Of a stretch of DNA of 64,000 nucleotides, positions 1,102-57,013 are shown one piece after another (the stretch's first letter is position 1; every line of letters starts with the position of its first letter). Origin of the DNA: an uncultured Clostridia bacterium (GTDB lineage Bacteria; Bacillota; Clostridia; Peptostreptococcales; Anaerovoracaceae); NCBI GenBank assembly GCA_944383465.1, contig CALWPQ010000028.1:1-64000 (forward strand), given 5' to 3'. The position numbers and the translations under genes were made by a program. Under the pieces are notes generated by a model, which made no database searches, was not told the DNA's origin, and saw only the letters and a program-made list of their open reading frames with translations.

Positions 1102-1611
1102 TTAATATGCGAGCACAAGAAGTATCTGATCTTCGATAAGATAGAAATCGTAGAGCTTGCTCTCGCGGAAATCAGAGATATCGCTTTTGTGGAGTGCGTA
1201 GTCTCCGTTTACAGCTGCAATAAATTCACTCGGCGGAAGTATTTTTGGCTCCGTTTCGCCGTCAGCTTTATATGTCGTTCTCGCTTCATCTGGCATATGT
1301 GTTATATAGGCCTTGTTTTTGTCAGCGATGTAATAGCCGTTTTCATAATTCGCATCTTCGACATATTCTTTTGCGTGAATGACTATTTCGTCGACGGAAG
1401 AACCGTCATCGCTCATTTTGATATCAATTGTTCCGAATACATGCTCGGCACCGTCGCGCAGAAGCTGCTCGGAATACTCTCCCTTGAGATAGCTTATCGT
1501 GATTTCAGGCTCGTCTATAGTGCTGCCGCTTTGATTGGATGAACACGATAAAAGCAATGACGACGTCAAAATAAATATGAGAAAAGTGACTAAAACTGTT
1601 CTGATTTTCAT
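1102..1611 (-). CDS. Putative lipoprotein of unknown function
   Basis: A 169-residue secreted lipoprotein that I do not recognise. The N-terminus has two basic residues, a hydrophobic stretch of about 17 residues and a lipobox ending LLSC at about residue 23, so signal peptidase II cleavage and lipid anchoring to the outer membrane face are expected. A Ser/Asn-rich tether follows. The rest is an acidic mixed alpha/beta domain rich in Glu, Asp and Tyr, without cysteines or recognised catalytic motifs. A good AGGGGG ribosome binding site and an extended TGATATTAT -10 lie upstream. It is transcribed alone, ending at the hairpin at 1051-1086. Confidence 0.7.
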   Translation of the reverse strand: MKIRTVLVTFLIFILTSSLLLSCSSNQSGSTIDEPEITISYLKGEYSEQLLRDGAEHVFGTIDIKMSDDGSSVDEIVIHAKEYVEDANYENGYYIADKNKAYITHMPDEARTTYKADGETEPKILPPSEFIAAVNGDYALHKSDISDFRESKLYDFYLIEDQILLVLAY

Positions 1612-1691
1612 AGCATTTCCCCCTTTTTATAACACTCCAACCTAATAATATCATAGATTTGCCGAATACAAAGCTTAAAATCTGAAATGTA

Positions 1692-1719
1692 ACGAAAATG
1701 TAAGAATGAGCATATATTA
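1692..1719 (+). promoter_or_regulatory. Sigma-K/sigma-E-like mother-cell promoter
   Basis: CATATATTA at 1711-1719, preceded by G, matches the mother-cell sporulation -10 consensus gCATAnnnTA. An AC dinucleotide at 1692-1693 lies 17 bases upstream, as in sigma-K promoters. The motif is short and could occur by chance. It gains weight from lying upstream of a cysteine-rich gene of the kind often found in spore outer layers. Confidence 0.35.
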
Positions 1720-1754
1720 TGAATGTGAAGGAATATGACCTGTATCTTTGTACA

Positions 1755-1774
1755 TAGCGAAATAAAATTCGCTA
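1755..1774 (+). promoter_or_regulatory. Small hairpin in the 5' leader of the cysteine-rich gene
   Basis: A 7-bp inverted repeat TAGCGAA/TTCGCTA with a 6-base A/T loop lies about 17 bases before the ribosome binding site. It could be an mRNA-stabilising stem or an operator. No T tract follows. Confidence 0.4.
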
Positions 1775-1799
1775 TTATTCTTGAAAAAGAAAGGTTGAT

Positions 1800-3008
1800 A
1801 TGACTATGGCAAAAGTATCATGTGTACGCAGCGGAGGTCCTAAGCTCTGCAGCGTATGCGGACCGAATGTTAATACCGAAGATGTGCTGTTCAGCGCACG
1901 CGAGGCCAATTTGGTATATATGGATAAGGTTTATTCCTACAACAAGGCCACGGCCTGCCCGATACTGCACGCAATAGCGCCTGACACTGACTGGACTACA
2001 GAACTTGTGCTCGAAAGCGTCAAGGATGACTGCGACTGTGATTGCGGCTGCGGCAATGGCTGCAGCGGAAACAGCGGCTGTGGATGCGGCTGCGGCGGCA
2101 GGTCATCGAGAAGAGGCTGCTGCTGTTGCAACTGCGACAGCGGATGTACGCTGACATCGGAAGCGGTATTTAATATTACGAGAAGCTATGTGCTCGTACA
2201 GAGCCTTGCGCTCGAAGATGACACACTTACAGAAGACAATGTTACTGTGGATGGCGTAGCTGTCGATACGCTGACAAAAGTAGGCAACAAGTATACTGCG
2301 ACAACGGATAATCTCGTAAATGAGACTGGAAGAGAAAGATGCAGAGAGCTCGGACTTCCATCAAAGCATTTCTTCCTCATCACGGGAGCAGGTCCTTGGC
2401 AGCTTACGGCGGTAATCGTTCTCGAAGGAACGGTAAATACAGCCGGCAGAACTTGCTGCTTCCAGGCAAAGTTTAGAACGACAACGCCAATTACGGTGGA
2501 CGACACCTCGACACTTGCAATTCCGAAACTCGCGCTTCCTTGCAGTGTAAACGGTGTAAGTCCGACGATAAACTTCAGTTTCGGCGGTATAGTATATGTG
2601 CTCAATCCGACAATTACGGCAACTTGCACGGATGATAACTGCACACTTGCACTTTCAGGCTCGCTCGCAGTACAGCCTCAGGTGAATGCAGAGGTAGTTA
2701 GAAGAACGCTCTTCTGTGTGGATGCCTGCGAAGGTATGCTGCCTTGCGATGGAACAGAAGCTGCATACGAGCTCGATACAGACGACGACTGCACTTGGCC
2801 GCCAGCTCCGGCCTGCAGATGCGGTACGGCACCGACACCGTCGAACGATCCGGATATCTGCGATACTTCGATAGTGTGCGATTTTGATAATGACAACAGG
2901 CCTTGCAACTGTGTCGGCGGTGAGCAGGATGAGAGATCGCGGCCGCCAAGACCGGGCGGAAACGGCGGCGTTCAGTGGAACGGCTGCAATGGTTGCAGCG
3001 GTTGGTAA
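1800..3008 (+). CDS. Cysteine-rich protein, putative spore coat or exosporium component
   Basis: A 402-residue protein of no family I can name. It has 36 cysteines (about 9%), concentrated in residues 77-120 as DCDCDCGCG-type repeats and a CCCCNC run, and again in the last 100 residues. A Thr/Val-rich central part with few cysteines (about 120-300) looks like a beta-rich domain. The C-terminus ends in Gly/Asn/Cys-rich sequence. There is no signal peptide or membrane segment, so it is either cytoplasmic or assembled on the forespore from the mother cell. An AAAGG ribosome binding site favours the ATG at 1806 (third residue) or 1800. The promoter region has a sigma-K-like -10, and a strong terminator follows, so it is monocistronic. 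A disulfide-crosslinked structural role is inferred from composition and promoter only; metal binding is an alternative. Confidence 0.6.
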   Translation: MTMAKVSCVRSGGPKLCSVCGPNVNTEDVLFSAREANLVYMDKVYSYNKATACPILHAIAPDTDWTTELVLESVKDDCDCDCGCGNGCSGNSGCGCGCGGRSSRRGCCCCNCDSGCTLTSEAVFNITRSYVLVQSLALEDDTLTEDNVTVDGVAVDTLTKVGNKYTATTDNLVNETGRERCRELGLPSKHFFLITGAGPWQLTAVIVLEGTVNTAGRTCCFQAKFRTTTPITVDDTSTLAIPKLALPCSVNGVSPTINFSFGGIVYVLNPTITATCTDDNCTLALSGSLAVQPQVNAEVVRRTLFCVDACEGMLPCDGTEAAYELDTDDDCTWPPAPACRCGTAPTPSNDPDICDTSIVCDFDNDNRPCNCVGGEQDERSRPPRPGGNGGVQWNGCNGCSGW

Positions 3009-5207: not shown

Positions 5208-7205
5208 ATGACACCTAACAGGATTAAGAAAAGACTCATAATAGGCTTTACGTTAGTGTGCGTTTTGATGTCAGCGCTGTTCGTAAAGGTAGGCTATATA
5301 CAAGTAGTGCACGGTGCGGAATATTCCAAGCTTGCAGTTGAGCAGCAGACGAAGGATATGCCTATATCGGCAAAGCGCGGCAGCATACTTGACAGAAATG
5401 GAGAAGAGCTTGCGTCAAGCGCTGTATGTTATTCGGTGTGGGCGAGACCTGCACAGGTGAAAAGCGGAAATACAGACGAGCAAAAAGAGATAAGCGTGAA
5501 CAAATGCGTAGATACGCTTGCAGAAATACTCGGTATGGATAAAGAAGAAGTGAGAACGCTCGTTACAAAGGAACAGTCGCTTGTAAAGGTGGCAAAATAC
5601 CTCGACAAGGAGACGGCAGATAAGGTAAGAGACGCTGATATTTACGGCATAGAAATAGCCGAAGACGTGAAGAGACATTATCCTCTCGGCGATTTTGCCT
5701 CGCAGCTTTTAGGCAGCGTTACGGACGACAATAACGGACTTGCGGGTATAGAGCTGAGATATAATCAGTATCTTTCAGGAATTTCCGGAAGATGGATAAA
5801 GAACACTGACAGAAACGGCAATAGACTTTCATATGGAGTAGAAAAATATTATCAGGCTGAAGACGGGCTTAATGTAGTCCTGACAATAGATGAAATAATA
5901 CAGCATTATGCGGAAAAATCCATTGATACAGTGCAGCAGGCTACAGATGCTGATAAGGTAATGTGCCTTATAATGGATCCAAAAACGGGAGATATACTGG
6001 CAATGGCAATAACGCCAGGCTACGATCCAAACGACCCGCGTGTGCCGCTCGACGAAAATGAGGCCGCTTATTTGGATACTTTGACAGACGAAGAAAAGCT
6101 CGAGTACTGGAATCAGATGTGGAGAAATCCTATAGTCAGCGATGTATACGAACCGGGTTCGACATCGAAGCTGCTGACGACAGCGATGGCGCTCGAAGAA
6201 GGCGTCACATCATTAGACGATAGATTTACCTGCACACATTCATATAATGTAAGCGGCACGATACTTAACTGCTGGAAGAGTACGCCGCATGGCAATCAAA
6301 ATCTGGTGGAAGCGGTGGGAAATTCCTGCAATCCGGTATTCATACAGCTTGCGCAGAGAATAGGAATACAGAAATTCTACGATTATCTCGAACTTTTCGG
6401 AATGACGGAGAGAACGGGCATAGATTATCCCGGAGAAGCGTATCCTATTATTCAGAATATAAATACGGCAGGACCTGTAGGACTTGCAACTATGTCGTAC
6501 GGACAGGGAATCGCAGTAAATATGGTGCAGCAGCTGACAGCTATATGCTCGCTTGGAAATGGCGGCAAACTCATGCAGCCGCGGCTCGTAAAAGCGCTCA
6601 CTGACTCTGACGGCAATATAGTGCAGGAATTCGATACGGTTGAAGTGCGGCAGGTGGTTTCCGAAAAGACAGCTTCGGAAATGTGTCTCATAATGGAATC
6701 CGTAGTATCTGAAGGCGGAGGCGGCACGGCGAAGATACCGGGCTATCGTATAGGTGGTAAGACCGGTACTGCCAACAAGGCGGCGGCAGGCGGCTACAGC
6801 GAAGAAACGTATTCTTCGTTTGTCGGTATGGCGCCGATGGATGATCCGCAAATAGCGATACTCGTGGTAGTGGATAACCCGAAAGGTACTAAGTTCGGAA
6901 GCCAGACAGCAGCTCCGGGCGCTAAAATGATACTCGAAGATACACTGAGATATTTGCAGATAATGCCTGAATATACACAGGAAGAGCTCGACCAGATAAA
7001 CAGCAAGATGAGCGTAGTGCCGGATGTGACGAATACGGCGTTCAGTACTGCGATAGGAATTCTTGGCGGTGCATCTCTCAATTATGTAATATCACCAGCC
7101 GTTACGGAAGCTGATAATGAGAGCGATTTCACGATAGTCGATCAATATCCGAAAGCCGGTGAAAAGCTCGAAACGGGAGGTACAGTATACATATATAGGG
7201 AGTGA
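5208..7205 (+). CDS. spoVD: Class B penicillin-binding protein, SpoVD/FtsI type, with one PASTA domain
   Basis: Septal D,D-transpeptidase of 665 residues that crosslinks peptidoglycan outside the membrane. It has a membrane anchor at about 8-30, a dimerisation/pedestal domain (AKRGSILDRNGEELA near residue 55), a transpeptidase domain with the catalytic triad motifs STSK (S318-K321), SCN (373-375) and KTG (518-520), and one C-terminal PASTA domain (about 604-664). B. subtilis SpoVD has one PASTA domain, whereas the vegetative PBP2B has two, hence the name. It is the only class B enzyme in this cluster, so it may also serve vegetative division. The start has no recognisable ribosome binding site next to it, and a terminator-like hairpin precedes it. 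Confidence 0.9.
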   Translation: MTPNRIKKRLIIGFTLVCVLMSALFVKVGYIQVVHGAEYSKLAVEQQTKDMPISAKRGSILDRNGEELASSAVCYSVWARPAQVKSGNTDEQKEISVNKCVDTLAEILGMDKEEVRTLVTKEQSLVKVAKYLDKETADKVRDADIYGIEIAEDVKRHYPLGDFASQLLGSVTDDNNGLAGIELRYNQYLSGISGRWIKNTDRNGNRLSYGVEKYYQAEDGLNVVLTIDEIIQHYAEKSIDTVQQATDADKVMCLIMDPKTGDILAMAITPGYDPNDPRVPLDENEAAYLDTLTDEEKLEYWNQMWRNPIVSDVYEPGSTSKLLTTAMALEEGVTSLDDRFTCTHSYNVSGTILNCWKSTPHGNQNLVEAVGNSCNPVFIQLAQRIGIQKFYDYLELFGMTERTGIDYPGEAYPIIQNINTAGPVGLATMSYGQGIAVNMVQQLTAICSLGNGGKLMQPRLVKALTDSDGNIVQEFDTVEVRQVVSEKTASEMCLIMESVVSEGGGGTAKIPGYRIGGKTGTANKAAAGGYSEETYSSFVGMAPMDDPQIAILVVVDNPKGTKFGSQTAAPGAKMILEDTLRYLQIMPEYTQEELDQINSKMSVVPDVTNTAFSTAIGILGGASLNYVISPAVTEADNESDFTIVDQYPKAGEKLETGGTVYIYRE

Positions 7206-12214: not shown

Positions 12215-13345
12215 ATGGCAGAACGCAAAAAGAGAAGTTTAAAAAATGTGAATATGAAGCCGGGTGACTTTATGCTCGTAATCCTGACGCTTGCGCTCGT
12301 GATCTTTGGGGTCATAATGGTGTTCAGCGCCAGTTATTACCATTCAATAAACGAATACGGCGATCAGTATCACTATCTAAAGAGAGATGTGATATGGGCA
12401 GGTTCGGGACTTGTTATAATGCTCTTCCTTGCAACTGTGGATTATAGAATATACGAGAAGCTTGCAAAACCGATAATGATTGTGAGCATCATTATGCTCG
12501 TGCTCATTTTCACGCCGCTTGGAGTTACGCGTAACAATGCGACGCGCTGGATAGGCGTATGGAAAATAACCTTTATGCCGGGAGAATTTGCTAAAATAGC
12601 AGCCATCATATTCGTGGCCTGGTATCTTTCGCGCGACAAGGACAGAATACGCTCTTTTAAAGAAGGGGTACTGCCGCTGGTGACGTTATGTCTTGTGTAT
12701 GCGGGGCTCATAATAAAACAGCCTAACCTTTCGACGGCGCTTACAGTGTGCGGTATTATCGTAGGTATGATGTTTGTAGCCGGGCTGCAGTGGAGGTATA
12801 TTGCGGGAATTATAGGTGCCGGTGTGGCCGGAGTGCTCACGCTTGTATTTATGGCGCCGGAGAGCGAGTGGATGAAGCGTATCACGAGCTTTCTCGATCC
12901 GTTTGCCGATAAGCTCGGCGACGGCTATCAGGTAGTACAGGGGCTTCTGGCGCTCGGTACGGGGGGACTTTTCGGTACGGGACTCGGCCGCGGCATACAG
13001 AAAAATCTTTACCTTCCAGAGCCGCAGAATGACTTTATACTTTCGATCATAGGCGAAGAACTCGGGTATATAGGGATAATGGCGCTGATGATTGTATATC
13101 TGCTCCTCATATGGCGCGGAATACATATTTCCGTGAATGCGAGCGATACCTTCGGCAGCCTGCTGGCAGCCGGTATTACGATAATGATAGCGCTGCAAGT
13201 GCTGATGAATATTGCGGTAGTAACATCGAGTATGCCGCCGACGGGAGTCACGCTTCCCTTCATTTCTTACGGCGGCAACGCGCTGTGGCTTTTTATGGGG
13301 TCTATAGGGATACTTCTTAATATTTCGCGGCATGCGCCGCGGTAG
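12215..13345 (+). CDS. ftsW: Lipid II polymerase FtsW/SpoVE (SEDS family)
   Basis: Polytopic SEDS glycosyltransferase (376 residues, about ten transmembrane segments) that polymerises lipid II at the septum together with a class B penicillin-binding protein, probably the SpoVD-type enzyme of this cluster. Recognisable stretches are NNATRWIGVW, MPGEFAKIA, KQPNLSTAL, PEPQNDFILSIIGEELGYIG and the C-terminal PPTGVTLPFISYGG. It is the only SEDS gene in the cluster. It ends ten bases before murG. Confidence 0.93.
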   Translation: MAERKKRSLKNVNMKPGDFMLVILTLALVIFGVIMVFSASYYHSINEYGDQYHYLKRDVIWAGSGLVIMLFLATVDYRIYEKLAKPIMIVSIIMLVLIFTPLGVTRNNATRWIGVWKITFMPGEFAKIAAIIFVAWYLSRDKDRIRSFKEGVLPLVTLCLVYAGLIIKQPNLSTALTVCGIIVGMMFVAGLQWRYIAGIIGAGVAGVLTLVFMAPESEWMKRITSFLDPFADKLGDGYQVVQGLLALGTGGLFGTGLGRGIQKNLYLPEPQNDFILSIIGEELGYIGIMALMIVYLLLIWRGIHISVNASDTFGSLLAAGITIMIALQVLMNIAVVTSSMPPTGVTLPFISYGGNALWLFMGSIGILLNISRHAPR

Positions 13346-24060: not shown

Positions 24061-24624
24061 ATGGATAAAAGTGTGGTAAGCGTAAAAATTTACGGACAGG
24101 AATATACGGTATCGGGAGATAAATCAAGAGAGTATATAATAAAGGTAGCGGACTATGTGGATCAGAATATGAGAGAAATAGCTGCTGTTGCCGCAGGGAT
24201 TCCTGCTCCGTCGCTTGCGGTGCTTGCGTCCGTCAATATTGCGGATCAGTATTTTGAGACGGCTGCAAGGCTCTCTGTTCAGGAAGAAAAATGCGCCGAG
24301 CAGGAAAAGGATATAGAGCATTATATAAAGCTGTGGGAAGAAGCGAAGAAAAACTTTGTGCAGTTCAAGGAAGAAGCGGGAAAGCTGCTCCAGCAGAAAG
24401 AAGAGCTGAGGCAGACATCAGACGCTAAGGACAAGGAAAATACGGAGCTTAAAGCGCAGCTTGAGGGGTTAGAAGAAAAAATTCGCAGTGAATTTGAAGA
24501 AAAGATTGCTTTAGCTGATCAGAGAGTGAAAGAAGCGGAAAGCAATTTCTTCGATCTGCAAATGGAAAATATCCGACTTAAAAGTGAACTTGAAAGATTC
24601 AAGCGGACGCAGAATAATTTTTAA
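24061..24624 (+). CDS. zapA: Cell division protein ZapA with a long C-terminal coiled coil
   Basis: ZapA promotes FtsZ bundling at midcell. Residues 1-90 form the ZapA domain (VSVKIYGQEYTVSGDKSREYIIKVADYVDQNM, ASVNIADQYF). The typical Bacillota ZapA ends near residue 85-100, whereas this protein continues to 187 residues with a Glu/Lys-rich heptad region (about 75-180), predicting a long coiled coil. It lies between pheT and mutS2; a zapA-mutS2 linkage is common in Bacillota. Confidence 0.85.
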   Translation: MDKSVVSVKIYGQEYTVSGDKSREYIIKVADYVDQNMREIAAVAAGIPAPSLAVLASVNIADQYFETAARLSVQEEKCAEQEKDIEHYIKLWEEAKKNFVQFKEEAGKLLQQKEELRQTSDAKDKENTELKAQLEGLEEKIRSEFEEKIALADQRVKEAESNFFDLQMENIRLKSELERFKRTQNNF

Positions 24625-24632
24625 GGAAAGAT

Positions 24633-27140
24633 ATGAACAAGAAAGCACAAAGAGTACTCGAGTACGATAAAATAATTGAAATGCTTACAGCGCAGGCCTC
24701 CTCCGAAATGACAAAACGCTTCATTTCGGGGGTAAAGCCTCTGCGCGGTATAAGTGAAATCCGTGAGAATCTCGCGGAGACTACGGAAGCCGCCCGGATT
24801 ATCGCCCGCAAAGGACCTGCTCCTCTGGGCGCTTTTTATGATATAGAGGGAAGCGTGCGCTTTGCCGAAAAAGGCGGCATTCTGACGATGCGGCCGCTTC
24901 TTCAGATTTTGTACAATTTAAAATCGGCACGAGCCTGCTCTGTATTTTTGAAGAATGATGCGGAAGATTGCCCGGCAGTGCTCGGTATTGCGGAGGTTAT
25001 TGCCGTTGTCCGTGCGCTCGAAGATGATATAGAGCGCTGCATTATTTCCGAAGATGAAATGAGCGACAGCGCGAGCACGGAGCTTAAAAATATAAGGCGC
25101 AGCATCGTGCGGCAGAACGAGAACATACGCGCGCGCATAAATCAGATACTGAATTCGCAGGAGAACAGGACGCTTCTTCAGGATGCGATAGTGACGATGC
25201 GCGGCGGCAGATATGTAATACCCGTAAAGCAGGAGCACAGAGCGCGTTTTCCGGGTATTGTGCACGATCAGTCGCAGTCGGGGGCGACGCTCTTCATAGA
25301 GCCGCAGGTGATAGTTAATCTCAATAATGAACTGCGCGAGCTTGAGATGGCGGAAAAGGCGGAGATCGAGAGGATACTCGCGGAGCTTTCGGGCGGTGTG
25401 GCTGCTCATGCTGCTGAGATCATCAACAATCAAAAGCTGCTCGTGAAGCTCGACTTTATATTTGCCAAAGGCAAGCTGTCGAAGCTGATGAACGGCGAGC
25501 CGCCGGAGATGAACGAAGATGGCGTGCTGGAGCTTAAAGGCGCGCGCCATCCTCTGATTGATGCCGCCAAAGTGGTACCTGTGTCACTGGAAATAGGAAA
25601 GTCATACAGCACTCTTGTAATAACGGGACCGAATACGGGCGGCAAGACGGTGACTTTAAAGACCGTGGGACTGACGGCGATGATGGCGCAGTCGGGTCTC
25701 CATATCGCGGCAAATCCGGGGTCGAAGCTGCCCGTTTTTAAGAATATTTTTGCCGATATAGGCGACGAACAGAGTATAGAGCAGAGTTTGTCCACATTCT
25801 CGTCGCATATGAACAATATAGTGTATATAACGAAAAAAGCGGGGAAGGACACGCTGGTGCTCGTCGATGAACTCGGCAGCGGCACCGATCCGACAGAGGG
25901 TGCGGCGCTTGCTGTTTCCGTGCTCGATTTTTTGAAGTCGGCGGGTGCGCTGACATTTGCGACCACGCATTACAACGAGCTTAAGAAGTACGCAATATCG
26001 ACGGACGGAGTTATGAATGCTTCCATGCAGTTTGATGTGGAGACGCTTTCTCCGACATATAAGCTGCTTGTGGGAGCACCCGGACGTTCGAATGCGTTTG
26101 AAATATCGGAAAAGCTGGGACTTCCGGCAGCGATAATCGCGCGCGCGCGCGGACTCATAGAGAGCGGTGATCTCGAATTTGAAGATGTGGTGTCCGCTAT
26201 TGAGCGCGACAGGCGGGAGGCTGAAGCCGAACGCGACGAGGCACTAATGCTTAAGATAGAGATGCAGAAGCAGAAGGCAGAGATTGATAAGTTGCAGGCG
26301 CGCCTCGCGGAGCAGAAAGAGAAGATACTCAGTTCGGCGCGCGAAGAGGCAAGACAGCTTGTGCGCGAAGCGCGCGAGGTGTCGCGCGAGGTGACGGCGG
26401 AGCTAAAAGAGCTGTCGAAGGTGGAGTCTCTCGGTGAGAGGACGCGCCGGCTCGACGAAAGCCGCAGCAGGCTGCGTGCGGCAAGCGCCAAATACCGCGA
26501 AAAGGTATCTGCTGCCGATACGGATTTTGAACCTGTGGATCCGGCAAAGCTTTTCATCGGTCACAGGGTAAAGGTGATGACGATAGGGCAGAACGGCGAA
26601 GTGCTCACGCTGCCCGACAGCAAAGGCGACTTGCTAGTGCAGGTTGGCATCATGAAGATAAATGCAAATGTAAAGGACCTGATGTCGATAGAGCAGGGCA
26701 AAGGCAGGAGTGCAGGCAGCGCAGGCAAGGGGCTTAAGCGGCGCGGTCCTGCGGGCGCGGGCTTTGGTCCCGCAGGCGGAAGCAGCAGCGGCTCTGCGGG
26801 CGGCTCAGGCAAGGGCTCGCAATTCGGAGCTTCGGGTGCAGGTTCCGGCAGCGGAACGGGGTACGGAGCGCTCTACCGCTCTAAGGTAATGAGCGTGCCG
26901 CTCACCATAAATGTGCAGGGCGAAAATCTCGACAGCGCCGTCGCCGATGTCGATAAGTACCTCGACGATGCCTTTATGGCAGGACTCGAGGAAGTGACCG
27001 TAATACACGGCCGCGGCGAGGGCATCCTCAAAAACGGCATCGCGCAGCTTTTAAGACGCCATAAGCACGTGGATTCGTTCCGCCGCGGCGCCTACAACGA
27101 AGGCGGCGACGGCGTTACTGTAGTCCGCCTTAAGAAATAG
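24633..27140 (+). CDS. mutS2: Endonuclease MutS2
   Basis: MutS-family ATPase without the mismatch-recognition domain; MutS2 acts against recombination and in rescue of collided ribosomes in B. subtilis. The 835 residues comprise clamp and lever helices (about 1-300), the ATPase domain (Walker A GPNTGGKTVTLKT near 333, Walker B LVLVDELGSGTDPTEG near 412), a coiled coil (about 515-620), a KOW-like part (about 630-690) and the C-terminal Smr nuclease domain (about 760-835, VIHGRGEGILKNGI). A Gly/Ser/Ala-rich insert of about 55 residues at 690-745 separates the last two and looks unstructured. Confidence 0.94.
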   Translation: MNKKAQRVLEYDKIIEMLTAQASSEMTKRFISGVKPLRGISEIRENLAETTEAARIIARKGPAPLGAFYDIEGSVRFAEKGGILTMRPLLQILYNLKSARACSVFLKNDAEDCPAVLGIAEVIAVVRALEDDIERCIISEDEMSDSASTELKNIRRSIVRQNENIRARINQILNSQENRTLLQDAIVTMRGGRYVIPVKQEHRARFPGIVHDQSQSGATLFIEPQVIVNLNNELRELEMAEKAEIERILAELSGGVAAHAAEIINNQKLLVKLDFIFAKGKLSKLMNGEPPEMNEDGVLELKGARHPLIDAAKVVPVSLEIGKSYSTLVITGPNTGGKTVTLKTVGLTAMMAQSGLHIAANPGSKLPVFKNIFADIGDEQSIEQSLSTFSSHMNNIVYITKKAGKDTLVLVDELGSGTDPTEGAALAVSVLDFLKSAGALTFATTHYNELKKYAISTDGVMNASMQFDVETLSPTYKLLVGAPGRSNAFEISEKLGLPAAIIARARGLIESGDLEFEDVVSAIERDRREAEAERDEALMLKIEMQKQKAEIDKLQARLAEQKEKILSSAREEARQLVREAREVSREVTAELKELSKVESLGERTRRLDESRSRLRAASAKYREKVSAADTDFEPVDPAKLFIGHRVKVMTIGQNGEVLTLPDSKGDLLVQVGIMKINANVKDLMSIEQGKGRSAGSAGKGLKRRGPAGAGFGPAGGSSSGSAGGSGKGSQFGASGAGSGSGTGYGALYRSKVMSVPLTINVQGENLDSAVADVDKYLDDAFMAGLEEVTVIHGRGEGILKNGIAQLLRRHKHVDSFRRGAYNEGGDGVTVVRLKK

Positions 27141-40402: not shown

Positions 40403-41554
40403 ATGAAGAATTTAAAAAAGCTTTTATGCTTGTTGCTGGCAGTTATAATGCTGCTTGCAATGAGCATAAAAGCGTTTGCTGCGGCCGGCGATACAGGATT
40501 TTCCGATGTGGCTCAAGGTGCGTGGTATGCAGCTGCCGTGACCTATGTTCGAGACAATAATCTCATGAGCGGTACCGGCGATACCGCATTTTCCCCTAAT
40601 GCAAACACCAGCCGCGCTATGCTGGCGGTAATTCTCTATCGGGCATCAGGCAGCCCGGAAGTTTCTTCGTCTGCCGGATTTACTGACGCGGCAGACGGCG
40701 CTTGGTATACTGATGCGGTAAACTGGGCTGCGGAGGGCGGTATTATTTCGGGTTATGGCAATGGCCTGTTTGGTATAAACGACCCGCTTACCCGTGAGCA
40801 GATAGCTACAATTCTGTGGCGCTATGCCGGAAGCAATTCCGCTTCTGAGGCTCAGTCTTTTGCGGATGAAAGCACTATTGCCTCTTATGCTTCCGACGCT
40901 GTAGATTGGGTACAGGCCAACGGCATAATGAGCGGAAAGCCGGGAAATTTCTTTGATCCTAAGGGCAATGCTACTCGCGCCGAGGTTGCTACGATCCTGA
41001 GCAACTACATGCAGATGAGTAGTGCGGAGCCTGAGCCGACGCCTGATCCTGAGGGCAGCAATTCACGCGTACTTGTGGCATATTTTTCTGGCAGCGGTAA
41101 TACCGAAGCTGCAGCAGAGATGATTGCGGAGACTTTGGATGCCGATATCTTTGAGCTTGTTCCGGCTGATGCTTATACGGAGGCAGACCTGAACTGGACC
41201 GTTTCCGGCAGCAGAGTCAACCGCGAACATGATAATGAAGCCCTGCGCAATGTAGAGCTTGTGACAGCTACTGTTTCTAACTGGGAGGATTATGACACCG
41301 TGCTGATCGGTTATCCTATCTGGTGGGGCATTGCTGCATGGCCTGTGAATGAATTTGTTTTGTCAAATGATTTTACCGGAAAGACAGTGATTCCTTTCTG
41401 CACATCGGCAAGCTCCGGACTTGGCCAGAGCGGTGAGCTGCTGGCAGAGATGGCTGGCGACGGCAACTGGCTTGAGGGACACCGCTTCTCTGAGCGTCCG
41501 TCTCAGTCTGATATCCAGAGTTGGTTAAATAGCTTGGAGATTTTTGGCGAATAA
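40403..41554 (+). CDS. SLH-anchored surface flavodoxin
   Basis: A 383-residue exported protein that joins three S-layer homology domains to a flavodoxin. The signal peptide ends near AFA (residues 24-26). SLH repeats occupy about 30-205 (GFSDVAQGAWYAAAVTYV, GFTDAADGAWYTDAVNWA, SFADESTIASYASDAVDWV). A Pro/Glu linker follows, then the flavodoxin domain (about 222-383) with the FMN phosphate loop SGSGNT and IGYPIWWGIAAWPVNEFV. SLH domains bind pyruvylated wall polymers, so an FMN redox domain would sit on the cell surface. It ends an apparent operon of a flavin reductase and two lipoprotein hydrolases and is followed by a strong terminator. Confidence 0.88.
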   Translation: MKNLKKLLCLLLAVIMLLAMSIKAFAAAGDTGFSDVAQGAWYAAAVTYVRDNNLMSGTGDTAFSPNANTSRAMLAVILYRASGSPEVSSSAGFTDAADGAWYTDAVNWAAEGGIISGYGNGLFGINDPLTREQIATILWRYAGSNSASEAQSFADESTIASYASDAVDWVQANGIMSGKPGNFFDPKGNATRAEVATILSNYMQMSSAEPEPTPDPEGSNSRVLVAYFSGSGNTEAAAEMIAETLDADIFELVPADAYTEADLNWTVSGSRVNREHDNEALRNVELVTATVSNWEDYDTVLIGYPIWWGIAAWPVNEFVLSNDFTGKTVIPFCTSASSGLGQSGELLAEMAGDGNWLEGHRFSERPSQSDIQSWLNSLEIFGE

Positions 41555-49646: not shown

Positions 49647-49849
49647 GCTATACTTTTGTTTAACTATTCGTAGGTAAAAGCAGTGTTTTTTAGAAAAAAG
49701 ATATCATTTGTAAAAAAATGGAAAAGATCTGCTGCAGGCTGAATATGCTGCTCTTTGGAATGATGTAATTGAAATATAAGATATAAGTTGGAGTGAACAT
49801 TGCGAATAGTATTTTAATAAGAACAAATAAAGAGAAGGAGAAACGCATA

Positions 49850-52800
49850 ATGAAAAGAAGGCTGCTTTCAATTTTTATGACAGTATGCATGGCCGTATCG
49901 CTCATACCTGCTGCGGTACTGCCGGCGTGGGCGCAAACTACCCAAAGGTCAGACTGGACCGGCAGTCAAACTACAGGTAACCTGATACCTATTATGAATG
50001 AGGGAGACACCCTTACCGCTGTCGGCTGGAGAAATATCGGAGATCAAATTAACCTCAGAGCATACCGTATAGATGATAACAACTATACAAATAAGGTGGG
50101 TATACAGGCAAGAAATAGCTCTCATGACATTGGAAATCAGAACTATACGGGTGGTATCTACTGGCAAATTGACTTCTCTTCCGGTGACAGAATGAAGATT
50201 GATAAGGGCGATCTGCTGCTTAATGCGGGAGCAAGGTATTGGTACCAGGCGTCAGCAGATCACTACACTTCTCTTCGTTTTGAATTCTTTGACGAAAATA
50301 ATTCTTTGCTAAATGACTCTAATAAGGCAACAAATCACAATTATTGGGTGGCGCAGCACGATACCTGGTTAGAGCTCAATGAAATTCAAATTCCTGCAAA
50401 CACTGCGTATGTAAGGATATGGTTTTCAAACTGGGGCTCACTGGCAGGAAGACCGTTTATCGGTGATTTTACCGCGACACTGACCGATAAAACAGCTCCG
50501 GCATATGTAGAGACCACCGCTGTATCTGAAGCGGGTACATATCATATCGGCGAGACAATCCGCTTGCGGGTGGCAATGAACGAGCCTGTCACCGTCACAA
50601 ACGGAGGAACGCTTGAAACAAACATCGGTAATGCGGTTTATGCGGGACAGAATTTGGGTGATTCGTCGGATGTAGGACAGTATATTTATTATGATTTAAC
50701 AATTACGGATTCACTTGCTGCAGTAAGCAATAAGTATGAGATAAAGCCAGTGAGCCTTTCGGGTCTTAGTGTTGCTGATGACGCCGGAAACACGGCTTTG
50801 GTAAATACAAATCAGAATTTCAGCGTATCAGACATTTATATGGACAATCAATATCCGTCTGTTACAGCAGTTTCACTGTATAGAGTAAACGGAAACACGA
50901 ACATTCCGGAGCAGGTGATTCCGGAGGATATGGTTACTTATGCGGTTACCTTTGACGAAAAGGTGTCATTTTCAAGCAACCCTACCTTTTCTTTTGCGGT
51001 GGGAGATGCAAACTTTTCCTGTACAGCAGCGGACGGAACTGTTTCTGCTGATGGGAAAACACTTTATTTCGCCGCAACTCTTAAAAACTGCGGCAAAAAC
51101 GGAGTGTTGAGGCTGAATGGTATATCAGGGCTTACGCTCATTGATGAAAATGGAAATGCAACCGTTTATGAGAACAGCGCTTTAGCGGATACGGGAATTG
51201 CATATAAGTCTGTCTACGGCGTTTCTGAGGAGCTGACCAATCTGAATTTGGCAAGCGGAGCTGAAACCGCCAGCTATGGCAGTGCTTGGAACGGCCGCTT
51301 GACTGCTGCCGAAGGCTACAAGCTGCCGGCCTCAATTGTTGTCAAGGTGGGGGGGAATGCGCTCACTGGCGGTTATACTTATAGCGCTGCTACCGGCGAG
51401 ATTGAGATTGCCGCAGCTTCTGTGAAAAATGATATCGTGATTTCTGCTTCAGGAATGCCGCAAACCTATAATGTGGTGCTGAATGCTCAGGGCGGATCGG
51501 GCGGCGCAACCGTTGTCGCAGTTTACGATAGCGAGATGCCGGTGATTGCAGCGCCTGATAAACCGGGTTATTTGTTCGGCGGTTATTTTGACGAAAGGAA
51601 TGGGGGCGGAACAAAATATTACAATGCCGACTGTTCCTCTGCAAGCATATATCGTAAGACGGAAGGGATCACACTATATGCTTTATGGACGCCGATTACG
51701 TATGACATTCAGCTGTACAGCAGGGGAGAAAACGTTGGCACATTAAACGATGTTATCTACGGCGAGCTGCGCTTACCTTCTGCCGAGAGCCTTGGAATAT
51801 CTTATACCAATCACAATTTTGTCGGTTGGAATATTTATGACGAGCAAAATTGGGCAATGTATACAGCGGACAGAGACTATTCTGCTGGCCTTGTGACAGA
51901 GCAGGGAAAGATAGCATATATTTATGCAGCCTGGCTGGAAAAAGATAAATATACCGTAACCTATGACGCTAACGGCGGTACGGGAGCGCCTTCTGCCGTG
52001 GAAGTCCATGTAGATGAAACCATTGTGCTGAGCGGCATCGTGCCAAGCAGGGAAAATTATACCTTTGCCGGCTGGTCGGAAAATTCCGGCGCAGCTACAG
52101 CGCAGTATCAGCCAAATGACAGCTTTACTATGGGAAATTCCCTGATAACGCTTTTTGCAGTATGGAATAGAAATCCGGAGCTTATCTACAATGCCAACGG
52201 CGGTATTTTTAATACTTATGCCGGGACTTCATATCCTGCGGCCGGATCTGAGGTTACGCTTACGAGCGCCATACCGCAAAAGGAAGGATATATATTTGTT
52301 GGCTGGGCAGAGAGTGAAACGGCTGCGGCATCGGACATCATATCCGCGCCGTATATAATGCCTGATAGCGATACTGTGCTCTATGCGGTCTATGAGCCGA
52401 TTAAGTATGAGGTCAATGTATATACAGCGGACGGATATTCAGTTTCCGGAATAAACGAGGATGGTTATATAATCGGCGAATATGCCGAATTTACCGTGAG
52501 CGGTACAGCTCCGAAGGTATATATCAACGGTATCCTCGCAACTCCTACAGACGGAATATACAAATTTGAGATACAGAATAACGCTTCTGTTGTCGTTGCC
52601 GATGCTTCTTTGGTAAATGTGATATACAGCGCTAACGGCGGTGTGAATGCGCCTGTTGACGTGCGCGTTTACGCAAGCGGAGACACGGCAGTTGTGGCAT
52701 CAGGCGTCCCTGAGAAAACAGGATATACATTCAGCGGCTGGGCAGGCACAGCGGATTTGGAGTATGCGGAATATACCGCCGGCAGCAGCATACCGGTTGC

Positions 52801-55800
52801 TGCTGAAGATATTGTTCTTTATGCCGTATGGACGCCGATAACCTATACGGTGAAATATGACGCGGCAGGCGGCAGCGGCGATATGACGGCAACTGCGGCC
52901 GTTTATGACGAGGAATTTACGCTTGCAGAAAATACATTTACCAAGGCAGGCTGTCAGTTTGCCGGATGGTCATACGCATCAGGCGGAGAGCTTGCCTATG
53001 TAGACGAAGCAAGGGTTAGCAATCTTACCGATGTGAATAACGGTGAAATTACGCTTTACGCCGTCTGGAAAGGCGCGCAAACAACTGTGCGCTTCCATTT
53101 TGAAGGCGGTTCGTCAGGTACTTCCTCCTGTGAAACTGCATACGGCGAAATTTTGCCGACAGATAGGTTGACGGCGCCGGGCAGATACGGATATGTATTT
53201 GCAGGTTATTACACTTTAGAAGACAAAGGCGGAGATTTGGTCTATAATGCGGATATGTCTTTGTCAGAATACTATCAAGCTAATCCATGGGACAGCGTTG
53301 CAGCTGAACTTAATTTATATGCCGCCTGGGAGCCTGTGAACTATACCGTGGCATTTGTAAACGGTACTGAAAATCTACAAGGTACCATAGATGCTGTCTA
53401 TGGACAGAGCTTCTTCTTGCCGCAGGCGGAGGAACTTGGCATTTCCCTTCCTGCTGGTTATTCCTTCAGAGGCTGGTCTATTGCATCGGGAAGCGATATA
53501 GTCTATTACAGCGCCGGGCAGGAAATTACGACAGGGCTTACGGGCGAGAATGGAATAACGGTATATCTTTATGCAGTTATTCAGGAAAATGAGAGCTATA
53601 CGGTAACCCTTCCGGCCTCTGGAGAAGGATATAAGGTATACTACAATGAGAGTGAGTTAACTTCGCAGACGGATATAAGGGTTAATGAGAATGAAAAGGT
53701 ATCCTTCAATATAAGCGTGGAGGAGGGCTACAGTGCTGACAGAATGATTGTTCTGGCAAATGGCGTGCTGCTTACCGGAAACAAAATCGGAAGCACTTAC
53801 ACTTATACCGTTTTTAACATTGAAGCAAATCAGCTCATTACTGTAACAGGGGTTGAATTTGACAAGTACGTCGTAACCTATATGGTTGATGAACAGATAT
53901 ATTTAACGGTACAGACAGGTTATAACGCATTGCTTACAGAACCTGTATTCCCGGCAAAGGCGGGAAGCACATTTAAAGGCTGGTCTGACGGCAGTCATCT
54001 GTGGAGCTTTTCAGCAGATAAAGTTATAGAAGATACGACGCTCTATGCGGTTTGGGATAACGATACATTTAAAGTGACACCGGCGGCAAGCGGAAGCGGT
54101 TACACAGTAACTTCTGATGACGATCAGACGGTAGCATTTGGAGGCAGCTATACCTTTATAGTGACTGTTTCTGATCACTATAATGCCGACGCGATGAAAG
54201 TTTATGCCAACGGAGTATTGCTTGTCCCTGATGTACACGGAAATGTTTATACATTTACAGTTGAGAATATAACCGCGGATGTTGCGATTACTGTAAGAGA
54301 TGTAGCAGAGGGTGTTTACACCGTTAAATATATTGTGGACGGCGAAATCTATTACAGTGAGAATGTGGTTTACGCCGGACAAGCGCAAAGACCGAGAACG
54401 CCTGTAAAGGCCGGGTATATCTTTGACGGATGGTTTGCCGGAGATGAGAAGTGGGATTTTGACACTGGAATAGAGGACGATTTAGAGCTTGAAGCAAAAT
54501 TCACCCGGCTTGTATATCGGGTAACGGTGCCCGATGCTCAAAGCGAATTTACCGTAAATGCTGTATCTGCTAATCCGGTAGAATACGGCGGCAGCTTTGC
54601 CTTTGATATTATCGTGGCAGATGGTTATAATACAGCGGATATGATGGTTTACGCAAACGGCATTCTTCTTGAAAAACTTTCCGAAAATGAAAATACGGTA
54701 TCATTTGAGCTGACAAATATAACAGAGCCGCAGGCTATAACCGTAAGGGGAATCGGACAGAATACTTATGCCGTTACTTACAGAGCAAATACAACAGAGT
54801 ATGTAGGCAATATGCCTGACAATGCGATAAAAGCTTACGGCAGTGATATAGCCATATCTGATTTGCTGCCCGAAAGATATGGATATCGCTTCCTCGGCTG
54901 GTCAACTACAGCAAATGCTGGAGTCGAATACACGGCTTTAGATATCTATTCTGAAAATAGTGATCTTACACTTTATGCTGTTTGGGAGGCGATGACCTTT
55001 GCTGTTTCTTTTGAAACCGGCGGAGGAAGCATAGAAAGCGGTGAGGTAACTGAATACACATACGGAACGGGAGCCGTACTGCCGACTGAGGTGATAAAGG
55101 AAGGCTATGATTTTGCAGGCTGGTATGAAGATGAGCTTTTGCAGGGCGTAAGAGTATATGAGATTAAAGAGACTGATTACGGCGACAAGAAGTATTATGC
55201 CGCATATTCAATGGCTGATGTGGTGATAAATGGTTATACAGGTGAGTACGACGGCAAAGAGCATAATATTACTTATACGCTCGCTGATAATGTTTCCGTT
55301 GCAGATTATCAGTGGTATTTTGTTCCGGATGGCGCGAGCGAGGCGATCGCGGTTTCGTCAGACTACTATCATACTTATGCGGTAAAGGATGCAGATGAAA
55401 GCGGCGAATATTACTGCTGTATTGAGACTGTTTCCGGTAGTTATGTAATACGCATGTTTACAGAGAAAGCAAAAGTTGCAATCACTAAGAAGCCTATTTC
55501 CGTAAAAGCTGCCGACAGCGGCAAGGTTTATGACGCGCAGCCTCTTGCGGTAAATGAAATTGAGCTGACAGATGGAAGCAGTTTGGCTGATAATCATATA
55601 ATATCGGCTGTTATGACGGAAGAAAGTACATTGACCAATGTTGGCACCAAGGCTAACGAGATAGAACGAATTACAATTTTAGATAGTGAAAATAGAGATG
55701 TGACGGCGAACTACGAAATCACAAAGCAAAGCGGTACGCTCAGCGTTACGCCGCGTGCTCTTATCGTTGCTGCTGAAAATGTGAGAATTGCGGCAGGCTC

Positions 55801-57013
55801 GGCGCTGAATGAAAATCACTTGTATAAAATAAGCGGTGTGTTGGGAAATGAAAATCTTTCTCTGGCAAATACTTCGGTTTCAGCGAAAAATGCAGACGGT
55901 GAAGATGTTTCTATTGCGGACATTGCAGATAATACCGGTAAATACACCGTTACAATTGTCTATAGTGGATTTGACGGCGCAGGCAGCGAGAATTACCAAG
56001 GCAGCGGTACAATCACATCTACAGTTACTGTTTATAAAAGCACTGGAGGAAGTACTGGCGGCGGAGGTGGCAGCAGCGGCGGTAGCGGCGGTGTATCAAC
56101 AACCTACACGGTTGAGTTTGATACAAATGGCGGCAGCAGCGTTGCAAGCCAAAGCGTAAATGCGAATGCAGCGACTACGGAACCAAAGGCTCCGGAAAAA
56201 GAAGGGTATGCCTTTGACGGCTGGTACATTGACAATCGCCTAACCGAAAGATTTGATTTTGCCACGAGGATTACAAAGAGCATTACTCTTTATGCTAAGT
56301 GGACAGCGTCTAAAACGGGAGAAGAACAGAATTCTGAAAATCTGCCTGCTGCAGACCCGACGGAAACAGGCGTTGCTGATCTGCTGGAAACAGAAAGGCA
56401 TATTCAGTATCTGAATGGATATGACAACGGCACCTTTAGGCCGAAAAACAGCATGACAAGAGCAGAGGTGGCGCAGATGTTCTATAACCTGCTGCTTAAC
56501 AAGGAGGCAGCGGGCGTGAGCGCATTTGATGATGTAAGCCGGAATGCTTGGTATTACGATGCTGTTATCACTCTTGCCAATATGGGTATTATAAAGGGCA
56601 AGGGAAACGATATATTCGATCCTAAGGGAAAGATCACAAGAGCAGAATTTACTGCCATTGCAATGCGGTTTAGCAATATTGATGCAAATGGGTCTAAAAC
56701 CTTTACCGATGTTTCTGAAAAGCACTGGGCGGCAAAGAATATTGCGGATGCCGCAGCTCTCGGATGGATTTCAGGAAACGGAGACGGTACTTTCAGCCCT
56801 AACGCTTTCATTACCCGTGCTTCCGCAGCAAAGATTGTAAACAATATGCTGGGGAGAAAAGCAGATATGGAATATGTAAACGCCCATGCAGACAGCATTA
56901 AGCTTTTCAAGGATGTTTCGTCTTCAGCTTGGTACTACGCAGATATTGTCGAAGCAACAAACGCTCACGAATACGAAAAAGCAGGAAGCATCGAAAGCTG
57001 GAAACAAAATTGA
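49850..57013 (+). CDS. Giant SLH-anchored surface protein with InlB-type repeats
   Basis: A 2,387-residue exported protein. The signal peptide ends at about AWA (26-28). An N-terminal region (about 30-205) rich in Trp, Tyr and Asn looks like a carbohydrate- or ligand-binding beta-sandwich. Then come an Ig-like segment (about 206-480), a long array of InlB B-repeat/Flg_new modules of about 70 residues (about 530-1790; hallmark YTVTYDANGGTGAP, GYTFSGWAG, LYAVW), MBG-like domains (about 1880-2060), a Gly/Ser linker, one more B-repeat (about 2085-2154) and three C-terminal SLH domains (about 2180-2360). The SLH domains should tether it to the wall; the repeats form a stalk for adhesion. AGAAGGAG fixes the ATG at 49850. 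An AgrA/AgrC-like pair lies upstream. Confidence 0.9.
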   Translation: MKRRLLSIFMTVCMAVSLIPAAVLPAWAQTTQRSDWTGSQTTGNLIPIMNEGDTLTAVGWRNIGDQINLRAYRIDDNNYTNKVGIQARNSSHDIGNQNYTGGIYWQIDFSSGDRMKIDKGDLLLNAGARYWYQASADHYTSLRFEFFDENNSLLNDSNKATNHNYWVAQHDTWLELNEIQIPANTAYVRIWFSNWGSLAGRPFIGDFTATLTDKTAPAYVETTAVSEAGTYHIGETIRLRVAMNEPVTVTNGGTLETNIGNAVYAGQNLGDSSDVGQYIYYDLTITDSLAAVSNKYEIKPVSLSGLSVADDAGNTALVNTNQNFSVSDIYMDNQYPSVTAVSLYRVNGNTNIPEQVIPEDMVTYAVTFDEKVSFSSNPTFSFAVGDANFSCTAADGTVSADGKTLYFAATLKNCGKNGVLRLNGISGLTLIDENGNATVYENSALADTGIAYKSVYGVSEELTNLNLASGAETASYGSAWNGRLTAAEGYKLPASIVVKVGGNALTGGYTYSAATGEIEIAAASVKNDIVISASGMPQTYNVVLNAQGGSGGATVVAVYDSEMPVIAAPDKPGYLFGGYFDERNGGGTKYYNADCSSASIYRKTEGITLYALWTPITYDIQLYSRGENVGTLNDVIYGELRLPSAESLGISYTNHNFVGWNIYDEQNWAMYTADRDYSAGLVTEQGKIAYIYAAWLEKDKYTVTYDANGGTGAPSAVEVHVDETIVLSGIVPSRENYTFAGWSENSGAATAQYQPNDSFTMGNSLITLFAVWNRNPELIYNANGGIFNTYAGTSYPAAGSEVTLTSAIPQKEGYIFVGWAESETAAASDIISAPYIMPDSDTVLYAVYEPIKYEVNVYTADGYSVSGINEDGYIIGEYAEFTVSGTAPKVYINGILATPTDGIYKFEIQNNASVVVADASLVNVIYSANGGVNAPVDVRVYASGDTAVVASGVPEKTGYTFSGWAGTADLEYAEYTAGSSIPVAAEDIVLYAVWTPITYTVKYDAAGGSGDMTATAAVYDEEFTLAENTFTKAGCQFAGWSYASGGELAYVDEARVSNLTDVNNGEITLYAVWKGAQTTVRFHFEGGSSGTSSCETAYGEILPTDRLTAPGRYGYVFAGYYTLEDKGGDLVYNADMSLSEYYQANPWDSVAAELNLYAAWEPVNYTVAFVNGTENLQGTIDAVYGQSFFLPQAEELGISLPAGYSFRGWSIASGSDIVYYSAGQEITTGLTGENGITVYLYAVIQENESYTVTLPASGEGYKVYYNESELTSQTDIRVNENEKVSFNISVEEGYSADRMIVLANGVLLTGNKIGSTYTYTVFNIEANQLITVTGVEFDKYVVTYMVDEQIYLTVQTGYNALLTEPVFPAKAGSTFKGWSDGSHLWSFSADKVIEDTTLYAVWDNDTFKVTPAASGSGYTVTSDDDQTVAFGGSYTFIVTVSDHYNADAMKVYANGVLLVPDVHGNVYTFTVENITADVAITVRDVAEGVYTVKYIVDGEIYYSENVVYAGQAQRPRTPVKAGYIFDGWFAGDEKWDFDTGIEDDLELEAKFTRLVYRVTVPDAQSEFTVNAVSANPVEYGGSFAFDIIVADGYNTADMMVYANGILLEKLSENENTVSFELTNITEPQAITVRGIGQNTYAVTYRANTTEYVGNMPDNAIKAYGSDIAISDLLPERYGYRFLGWSTTANAGVEYTALDIYSENSDLTLYAVWEAMTFAVSFETGGGSIESGEVTEYTYGTGAVLPTEVIKEGYDFAGWYEDELLQGVRVYEIKETDYGDKKYYAAYSMADVVINGYTGEYDGKEHNITYTLADNVSVADYQWYFVPDGASEAIAVSSDYYHTYAVKDADESGEYYCCIETVSGSYVIRMFTEKAKVAITKKPISVKAADSGKVYDAQPLAVNEIELTDGSSLADNHIISAVMTEESTLTNVGTKANEIERITILDSENRDVTANYEITKQSGTLSVTPRALIVAAENVRIAAGSALNENHLYKISGVLGNENLSLANTSVSAKNADGEDVSIADIADNTGKYTVTIVYSGFDGAGSENYQGSGTITSTVTVYKSTGGSTGGGGGSSGGSGGVSTTYTVEFDTNGGSSVASQSVNANAATTEPKAPEKEGYAFDGWYIDNRLTERFDFATRITKSITLYAKWTASKTGEEQNSENLPAADPTETGVADLLETERHIQYLNGYDNGTFRPKNSMTRAEVAQMFYNLLLNKEAAGVSAFDDVSRNAWYYDAVITLANMGIIKGKGNDIFDPKGKITRAEFTAIAMRFSNIDANGSKTFTDVSEKHWAAKNIADAAALGWISGNGDGTFSPNAFITRASAAKIVNNMLGRKADMEYVNAHADSIKLFKDVSSSAWYYADIVEATNAHEYEKAGSIESWKQN

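Follow-up and report, generated by a model that had tools for sequence, protein, structure and literature searches.

A cysteine-rich protein family linked to sporulation genes in Clostridia, with a sigma-K-type promoter and a probable role in the outer spore envelope

The window analysed here (the whole stretch of 64,000 nucleotides) carries a gene for a cysteine-rich protein which, judged from sequence comparison, is a member of a new protein family. Its members occur in a single family of Clostridia, and three others contain distant relatives. The comparative sequence evidence links this gene strongly to sporulation, and within the window's family it was confined to genomes with sporulation genes. 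The product is considered likely to be a structural protein that the mother cell makes late, under sigma-K, for the outer envelope of the spore (exosporium or outer coat); its surface location and cross-linking are what we infer. The features of the gene and its product, in window coordinates, were as follows.

1690-1694, forward strand: -35 element, TAACG (consensus KCACM), emerging from 24 upstream regions aligned on the -10 alone
1710-1719, forward strand: -10 element, GCATATATTA (consensus GCATANNNTA), with an equivalent CATAtAnT(A/G) in 24/24 aligned upstream regions
1738-1749, forward strand: possible anti-Shine-Dalgarno strand, ACCTGTATCTTT, which could pair with AAAGGT (RNAfold and complementarity tests; suggestive)
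1752-1775, forward strand: conserved leader hairpin, ACATAGCGAA...TTCGCTAT (stem against shuffles, covariation)
1790-1794, forward strand: Shine-Dalgarno sequence, AAAGG (from the sequence)
1800-3008, forward strand: gene for the cysteine-rich, spore-associated protein, 402 codons, or 400 aa from ATG 1806 (homologues found)
1908-2720, forward strand: predicted beta-rich folded core, residues 37-307, split by a cysteine-rich insertion (AlphaFold2, most strands pLDDT >90)
2031-2147, forward strand: cysteine-rich, predicted disordered insertion, residues 78-116, 14 cysteines (cysteine count; pLDDT <50 at residues 76-114)
2715-3005, forward strand: cysteine-rich, predicted disordered C-terminal arm, ending QWNGCNGCSGW (AlphaFold2 pLDDT <50; orthologue alignment)

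The protein and its predicted structure

The 402-aa protein contains 36 cysteines (9.0%), as counted in an earlier sequence-only reading of this DNA, and its cysteine content was the highest in the window, where the 52 open reading frames of at least 100 aa had a mean of 1.73% and the second-ranked one reached 4.5%. The earlier description of two cysteine clusters was found to be roughly right: 14 cysteines lie in residues 78-116, while the second set (12 in residues 306-399) is looser, and ten are scattered outside both, across the N-terminus and core. The poly-cysteine run (CCCC at residues 107-110) and the Thr/Val-rich core described there were both present, and the claimed absence of a signal peptide was borne out by the N-terminus MTMAKVSCVRSGGPKLCSVCGPN, which has no hydrophobic segment and is not signal-like. 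The true start may be ATG 1806, since the closest orthologues begin with MAKV.

The full AlphaFold2 model was built from nine sequences and has a beta core of long strands, mostly with pLDDT >90, whereas the insertion and the C-terminal arm were below 50. A core-only model was concordant with the full one (pTM 0.72). At E<=0.001, Foldseek matched neither model to any PDB structure, nor the full model to any viral model, and the predicted fold may be new among the solved structures compared. One orthologous copy (L004 5935-7302) has an ambiguous base near the C-terminus past which the reading runs on, probably an assembly flaw, and was omitted from the structure alignments.

Relatives and the link to sporulation genes

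A tblastn-confirmed scan of GTDB contigs gave nine relatives with 33-84% identity. In whole-genome searches of the window's family, 18 of 99 genomes had the gene; a profile search of the same genomes returned the same 18 carriers with a single copy each. When the profile search was extended to the order (198 genomes), the matches were confined to the window's own family. Class-wide profile searches, which covered 391 genomes, added distant members in three further families (G121; G122, G150 and G580; G125). Their E-values were 2.7e-68 to 7.6e-26 with a larger profile that already included the G121 sequence, and this sequence was itself found at E=5.5e-10 by a profile built without it. Weaker class-wide matches (E 0.0015 to 0.1) were taken as chance. 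The earlier suggestion of a lineage-specific protein gains support as a lineage-restricted one: within the order (198 genomes) its relatives were confined to the window's family, and in the class (391 genomes) strong distant matches occurred only in three other families.

The distant members are also cysteine-rich and have the common core pattern. Cysteines 20, 84, 181, 316, 339, 341 and 369 were conserved wherever aligned, together with GLPTKxFFL, EGTV, LPC and LNP; within the window's family, many orthologues also have an NGCNGCSW-like (NGCxW-type) C-terminal ending. The length of the arms and the number of cysteines vary, the latter from 22 to 53 among orthologues. The window protein had no match in Pfam or NCBIfam at E<=1 and the divergent homologues likewise had none; sequence searches of the PDB with the same proteins returned no relative, and neither did a search of a plasmid collection for the cysteine-rich protein.

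The distribution of the gene followed that of sporulation genes. SpoIVA (PF09547) was detected in 26 and SpoIIIAB (PF09548) in 27 of the 99 family genomes. At least one of them was present in all 18 carriers (SpoIVA in 17, SpoIIIAB in 18), and the gene was found in none of the 71 genomes with neither (Fisher p=5e-13, a value that ignores kinship, with 91 genera among the 99 genomes). A contrast in the same direction was seen inside one genus (g72), in which the gene and SpoIVA occur together in G469 and G515 and are both missing from G072, a 99% complete genome. Outside the family, SpoIVA was present in the distant carriers G121, G122, G125 and G150 and was not detected in G580, whose genome is 85% complete. 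The sequence-only reading had expected homologues in spore formers only, and the profile search agrees with it (18/18 carriers against 0/71 genomes without either marker); a distribution mainly among non-sporulating species, which would speak against that reading, was looked for and did not appear, and the g72 contrast points the same way. About 10 of the 28 family genomes with sporulation genes, some of them poorly complete, had no detectable copy, and the protein is therefore not a universal coat component.

Promoter, leader and neighbouring genes

The sequence-only reading had reported a CATAnnnTA -10 element with AC 17 bases upstream. This site is present as described (CATATATTA at 1711-1719, AC 17 bases upstream) but is not significant taken alone, because both strands of the window together contain 35 copies of CATANNNTA, eight of them with AC 15-18 bases upstream. 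It becomes convincing because it is conserved in 24 orthologous upstream regions. These regions were aligned on the -10 element, located by regular expression in most of them and by eye in L013 and L016, and the -35 element played no part in the alignment. Nevertheless a -35 pattern emerged at the right spacing: K (T/G) at position -21 in 22/24 regions, A at -19 in 14/24, C at -18 in 12/24 and M (C/A) at -17 in 21/24, with G at -1 in 15/24. The window's own element (TAACG) agrees with KCACM at three of five positions. In Bacillus subtilis the sigma-K consensus is KCACM...GCATANNNTA, and the sigma-E -35 is TYATATTT (PMC3416734). Against these B. subtilis lists, the recovered pattern, KCACM-N15-GCATANNNTA-like, corresponds to the sigma-K consensus and not to the sigma-E -35. 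Judged by sequence conservation, the promoter of the cysteine-rich gene has -35 and -10 elements of the sigma-K type, and the earlier claim of a sigma-K-like promoter is strengthened by the emergent -35. A tract, AAATGTAAC-GAAAATGTAAGAAT, lies upstream of the -10 element at 1686-1706 and has similar counterparts in L001-L005. Two of these, L001 and L002, have extra DNA between this tract and the -10, with a -35 kept at the usual spacing.

An unexpected addition was a conserved mRNA leader. Downstream of the inferred start and ahead of the ribosome-binding site, 17 of 25 leaders have the motif ACATA, and in most of them a covarying hairpin follows it. The stem at ACATA beat dinucleotide shuffles in most of the 17 leaders, with a combined p=3e-14 that is approximate because the leaders are related. 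Across 11 leaders, 68 of 68 alignment cells were paired and four of seven pairs had changed on both sides; the pairing is inflated because these leaders were picked as stem-formers, and in a slid control, with the partner moved by one to three columns, it went down to 19-53%. The hairpin is not universal, because eight leaders (L003, L004, L006, L009, L017, L033, L036 and L037) have no ACATA. No Rfam family matched it, and the composite promoter-plus-hairpin pattern occurred a single time in the window's genome, at the locus of the cysteine-rich gene.

In many leaders (e.g., L007, L014, L021, L024, L032 and L035) RNAfold predicts that a CU-rich strand 5' of the hairpin pairs with the ribosome-binding site. 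For the possible anti-Shine-Dalgarno strand at 1738-1749, Shine-Dalgarno pairing was 0.95 against 0.66 in shuffles. A complementarity test over 17 leaders gave a combined p=3e-4, which is suggestive, as the per-leader tests were mostly weak; universal anti-Shine-Dalgarno pairing was accordingly downgraded to one predicted in many, not all, leaders. Such structure in the leader may make the mRNA more stable or restrain its translation. It is a tentative and rather doubtful proposal that the leader acts as a regulatory RNA, in which the ribosome-binding site would be paired with the upstream CU-rich strand around the ACATA hairpin after sigma-K transcription, delaying translation. A factor, temperature or a change of conditions in the mother cell would then release it, allowing a self-cross-linking protein to be translated only late. 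If true, spore-envelope assembly would gain a translational step, in a protein family of possibly new fold. A search of the literature on translational control of coat proteins found nothing relevant.

In most orthologous loci the gene adjoins mraZ/rsmH or lies near a penicillin-binding protein gene of the dcw cluster; in the window it is followed by mraZ, rsmH and genes for a penicillin-binding protein of SpoVD type and a protein of SpoVE/FtsW type. Of these, the class B penicillin-binding protein (5208-7205) and the FtsW-like protein (12215-13345), both on the forward strand, had their best scores with the sporulation models spoVD and spoVE, under the curated cut-offs. This neighbourhood is what would favour a vegetative cell-surface or cell-division-associated protein. 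However, the orientation of the gene relative to dcw is the same in the window and L001-L005 and reversed in many others (e.g., L008, L009, L016, L017, L021 and L022), so the gene is an independent transcription unit outside the dcw operon. Relatives without sporulation genes also lack the cysteine-rich gene, and the sigma-K-type promoter and missing signal peptide do not fit such a protein either. Given the sporulation linkage and the variable orientation, we rejected a vegetative or division function, which we regard as highly improbable.

Other genes of the window were noted beside this locus. A small lipoprotein-like gene (1102-1611, reverse strand, 169 aa), with no match in Pfam or NCBIfam, adjoins the cysteine-rich gene or lies close to it, both in the window and in L002-L007; whether as a conserved partner or by mere proximity, either reading may apply. 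The product of 40403-41554 (forward strand) has a flavodoxin domain (PF12682) together with three S-layer homology domains (PF00395), an unusual combination, and is possibly a cell-wall-anchored flavodoxin. The 2406-aa product of 49793-57013 (forward strand) is probably a giant surface protein; it has three S-layer homology domains and nine Listeria-Bacteroides repeat domains.

The linkage to sporulation leaves the location of the protein unfixed, and a cysteine-rich protein could act inside the spore. It could be a sporulation protein outside any surface lattice, perhaps one that binds metal or buffers redox state in the mother cell or inner coat, its cysteine clusters coordinating metal and not forming disulfides between molecules, and its Cys-Gly and CC runs do resemble metal-binding peptides in outline. 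We consider this unlikely: disordered arms that vary in length and in cysteine number (22-53) suit cross-linking better than a fixed metal site, and a cysteine-rich protein with no signal peptide and a sigma-K-type promoter has the known architecture of exosporium proteins. As a structural protein of the outer envelope, it would be made in the mother-cell cytosol at the last stage of sporulation. Its beta cores would assemble around the forespore as a regular shell, in which the cysteine-rich insertion and C-terminal arm would lock neighbours through disulfide bonds, as proposed for CsxA, ExsY and CdeC.

Significance and comparison with known spore-surface systems

The outer layers of spores evolve fast, and most uncultured spore formers are without known envelope proteins. 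The cysteine-rich family offers a sequence handle on the spore surface of an uncultured lineage, and the gene is a marker that tracks sporulation genes in a family in which most members are without them.

CsxA and CdeC come closest to the window protein in size, composition and proposed role. CsxA, which makes the exosporium lattice in Clostridium sporogenes and C. botulinum group I, forms a self-assembling, thiol-sensitive layer (PMC4942563, PMC7333573) and has 299 aa with 25 cysteines (PMC4942563). Compared by description, it is near the window protein in being cysteine-rich, in occurring in Clostridia, and in size and proposed role. The loci differ: csxA lies between zapA and a U32 peptidase gene, often with collagen-like genes (the arrangement in the two groups just named; csxA genes that are more distant lie elsewhere), whereas in the window zapA (24061-24624) is followed directly by mutS2 (24633-27140).

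The sequence-only reading had compared the protein with CdeC, the exosporium morphogenetic protein of Clostridioides difficile, which has 405 aa and 9% cysteine and forms lamellae in E. coli (PMC7677010). The likeness in length (405 against 402 aa) and in cysteine content (9% against 9.0%) is close. However, the NPC repeats, CCRQGKGK repeats and KKNKRR of CdeC (PMC7677010) are absent from the 402-aa window protein, and the order-wide profile search (198 genomes) returned nothing from any family but the window's own. The comparison therefore holds in the sense of a protein that would work like CdeC, and homology finds no support in these searches.

It could still be that the protein is a true homologue of CsxA (or CdeC) diverged beyond the reach of sequence searches, which would refine the outer-envelope assignment and is compatible with it. 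The similar size, cysteine content and proposed role are in its favour, and CsxA-like domains have been reported in appendage anchors of Clostridia (PMC11952670). We give this only a small probability, given the missing CdeC motifs, the presence of mutS2 in the csxA position after zapA, and the class-wide profile searches, whose strong matches were restricted to the three further families among 391 genomes.

The subunits of ENA appendages (S-, L- and F-type) are assembled on spores and some are cross-linked by cysteines; F-ENA surface fibres have been seen on spores of a member of Anaerovoracaceae (PMC11952670). The window protein differs from them in that it matched neither a Pfam family nor, at E<=0.001, a fold in the PDB. 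In the Bacillus cereus group, ExsY/CotY, which self-assemble into a hexagonal exosporium or coat lattice (PMC7333573), are cysteine-rich like the window protein, which differs in matching no Pfam or NCBIfam family. It has been proposed that unrelated cysteine-rich proteins are to be expected to build similar lattices (PMC7333573), and the family described here would add a case for the repeated recruitment of such proteins to spore-surface lattices of this kind.
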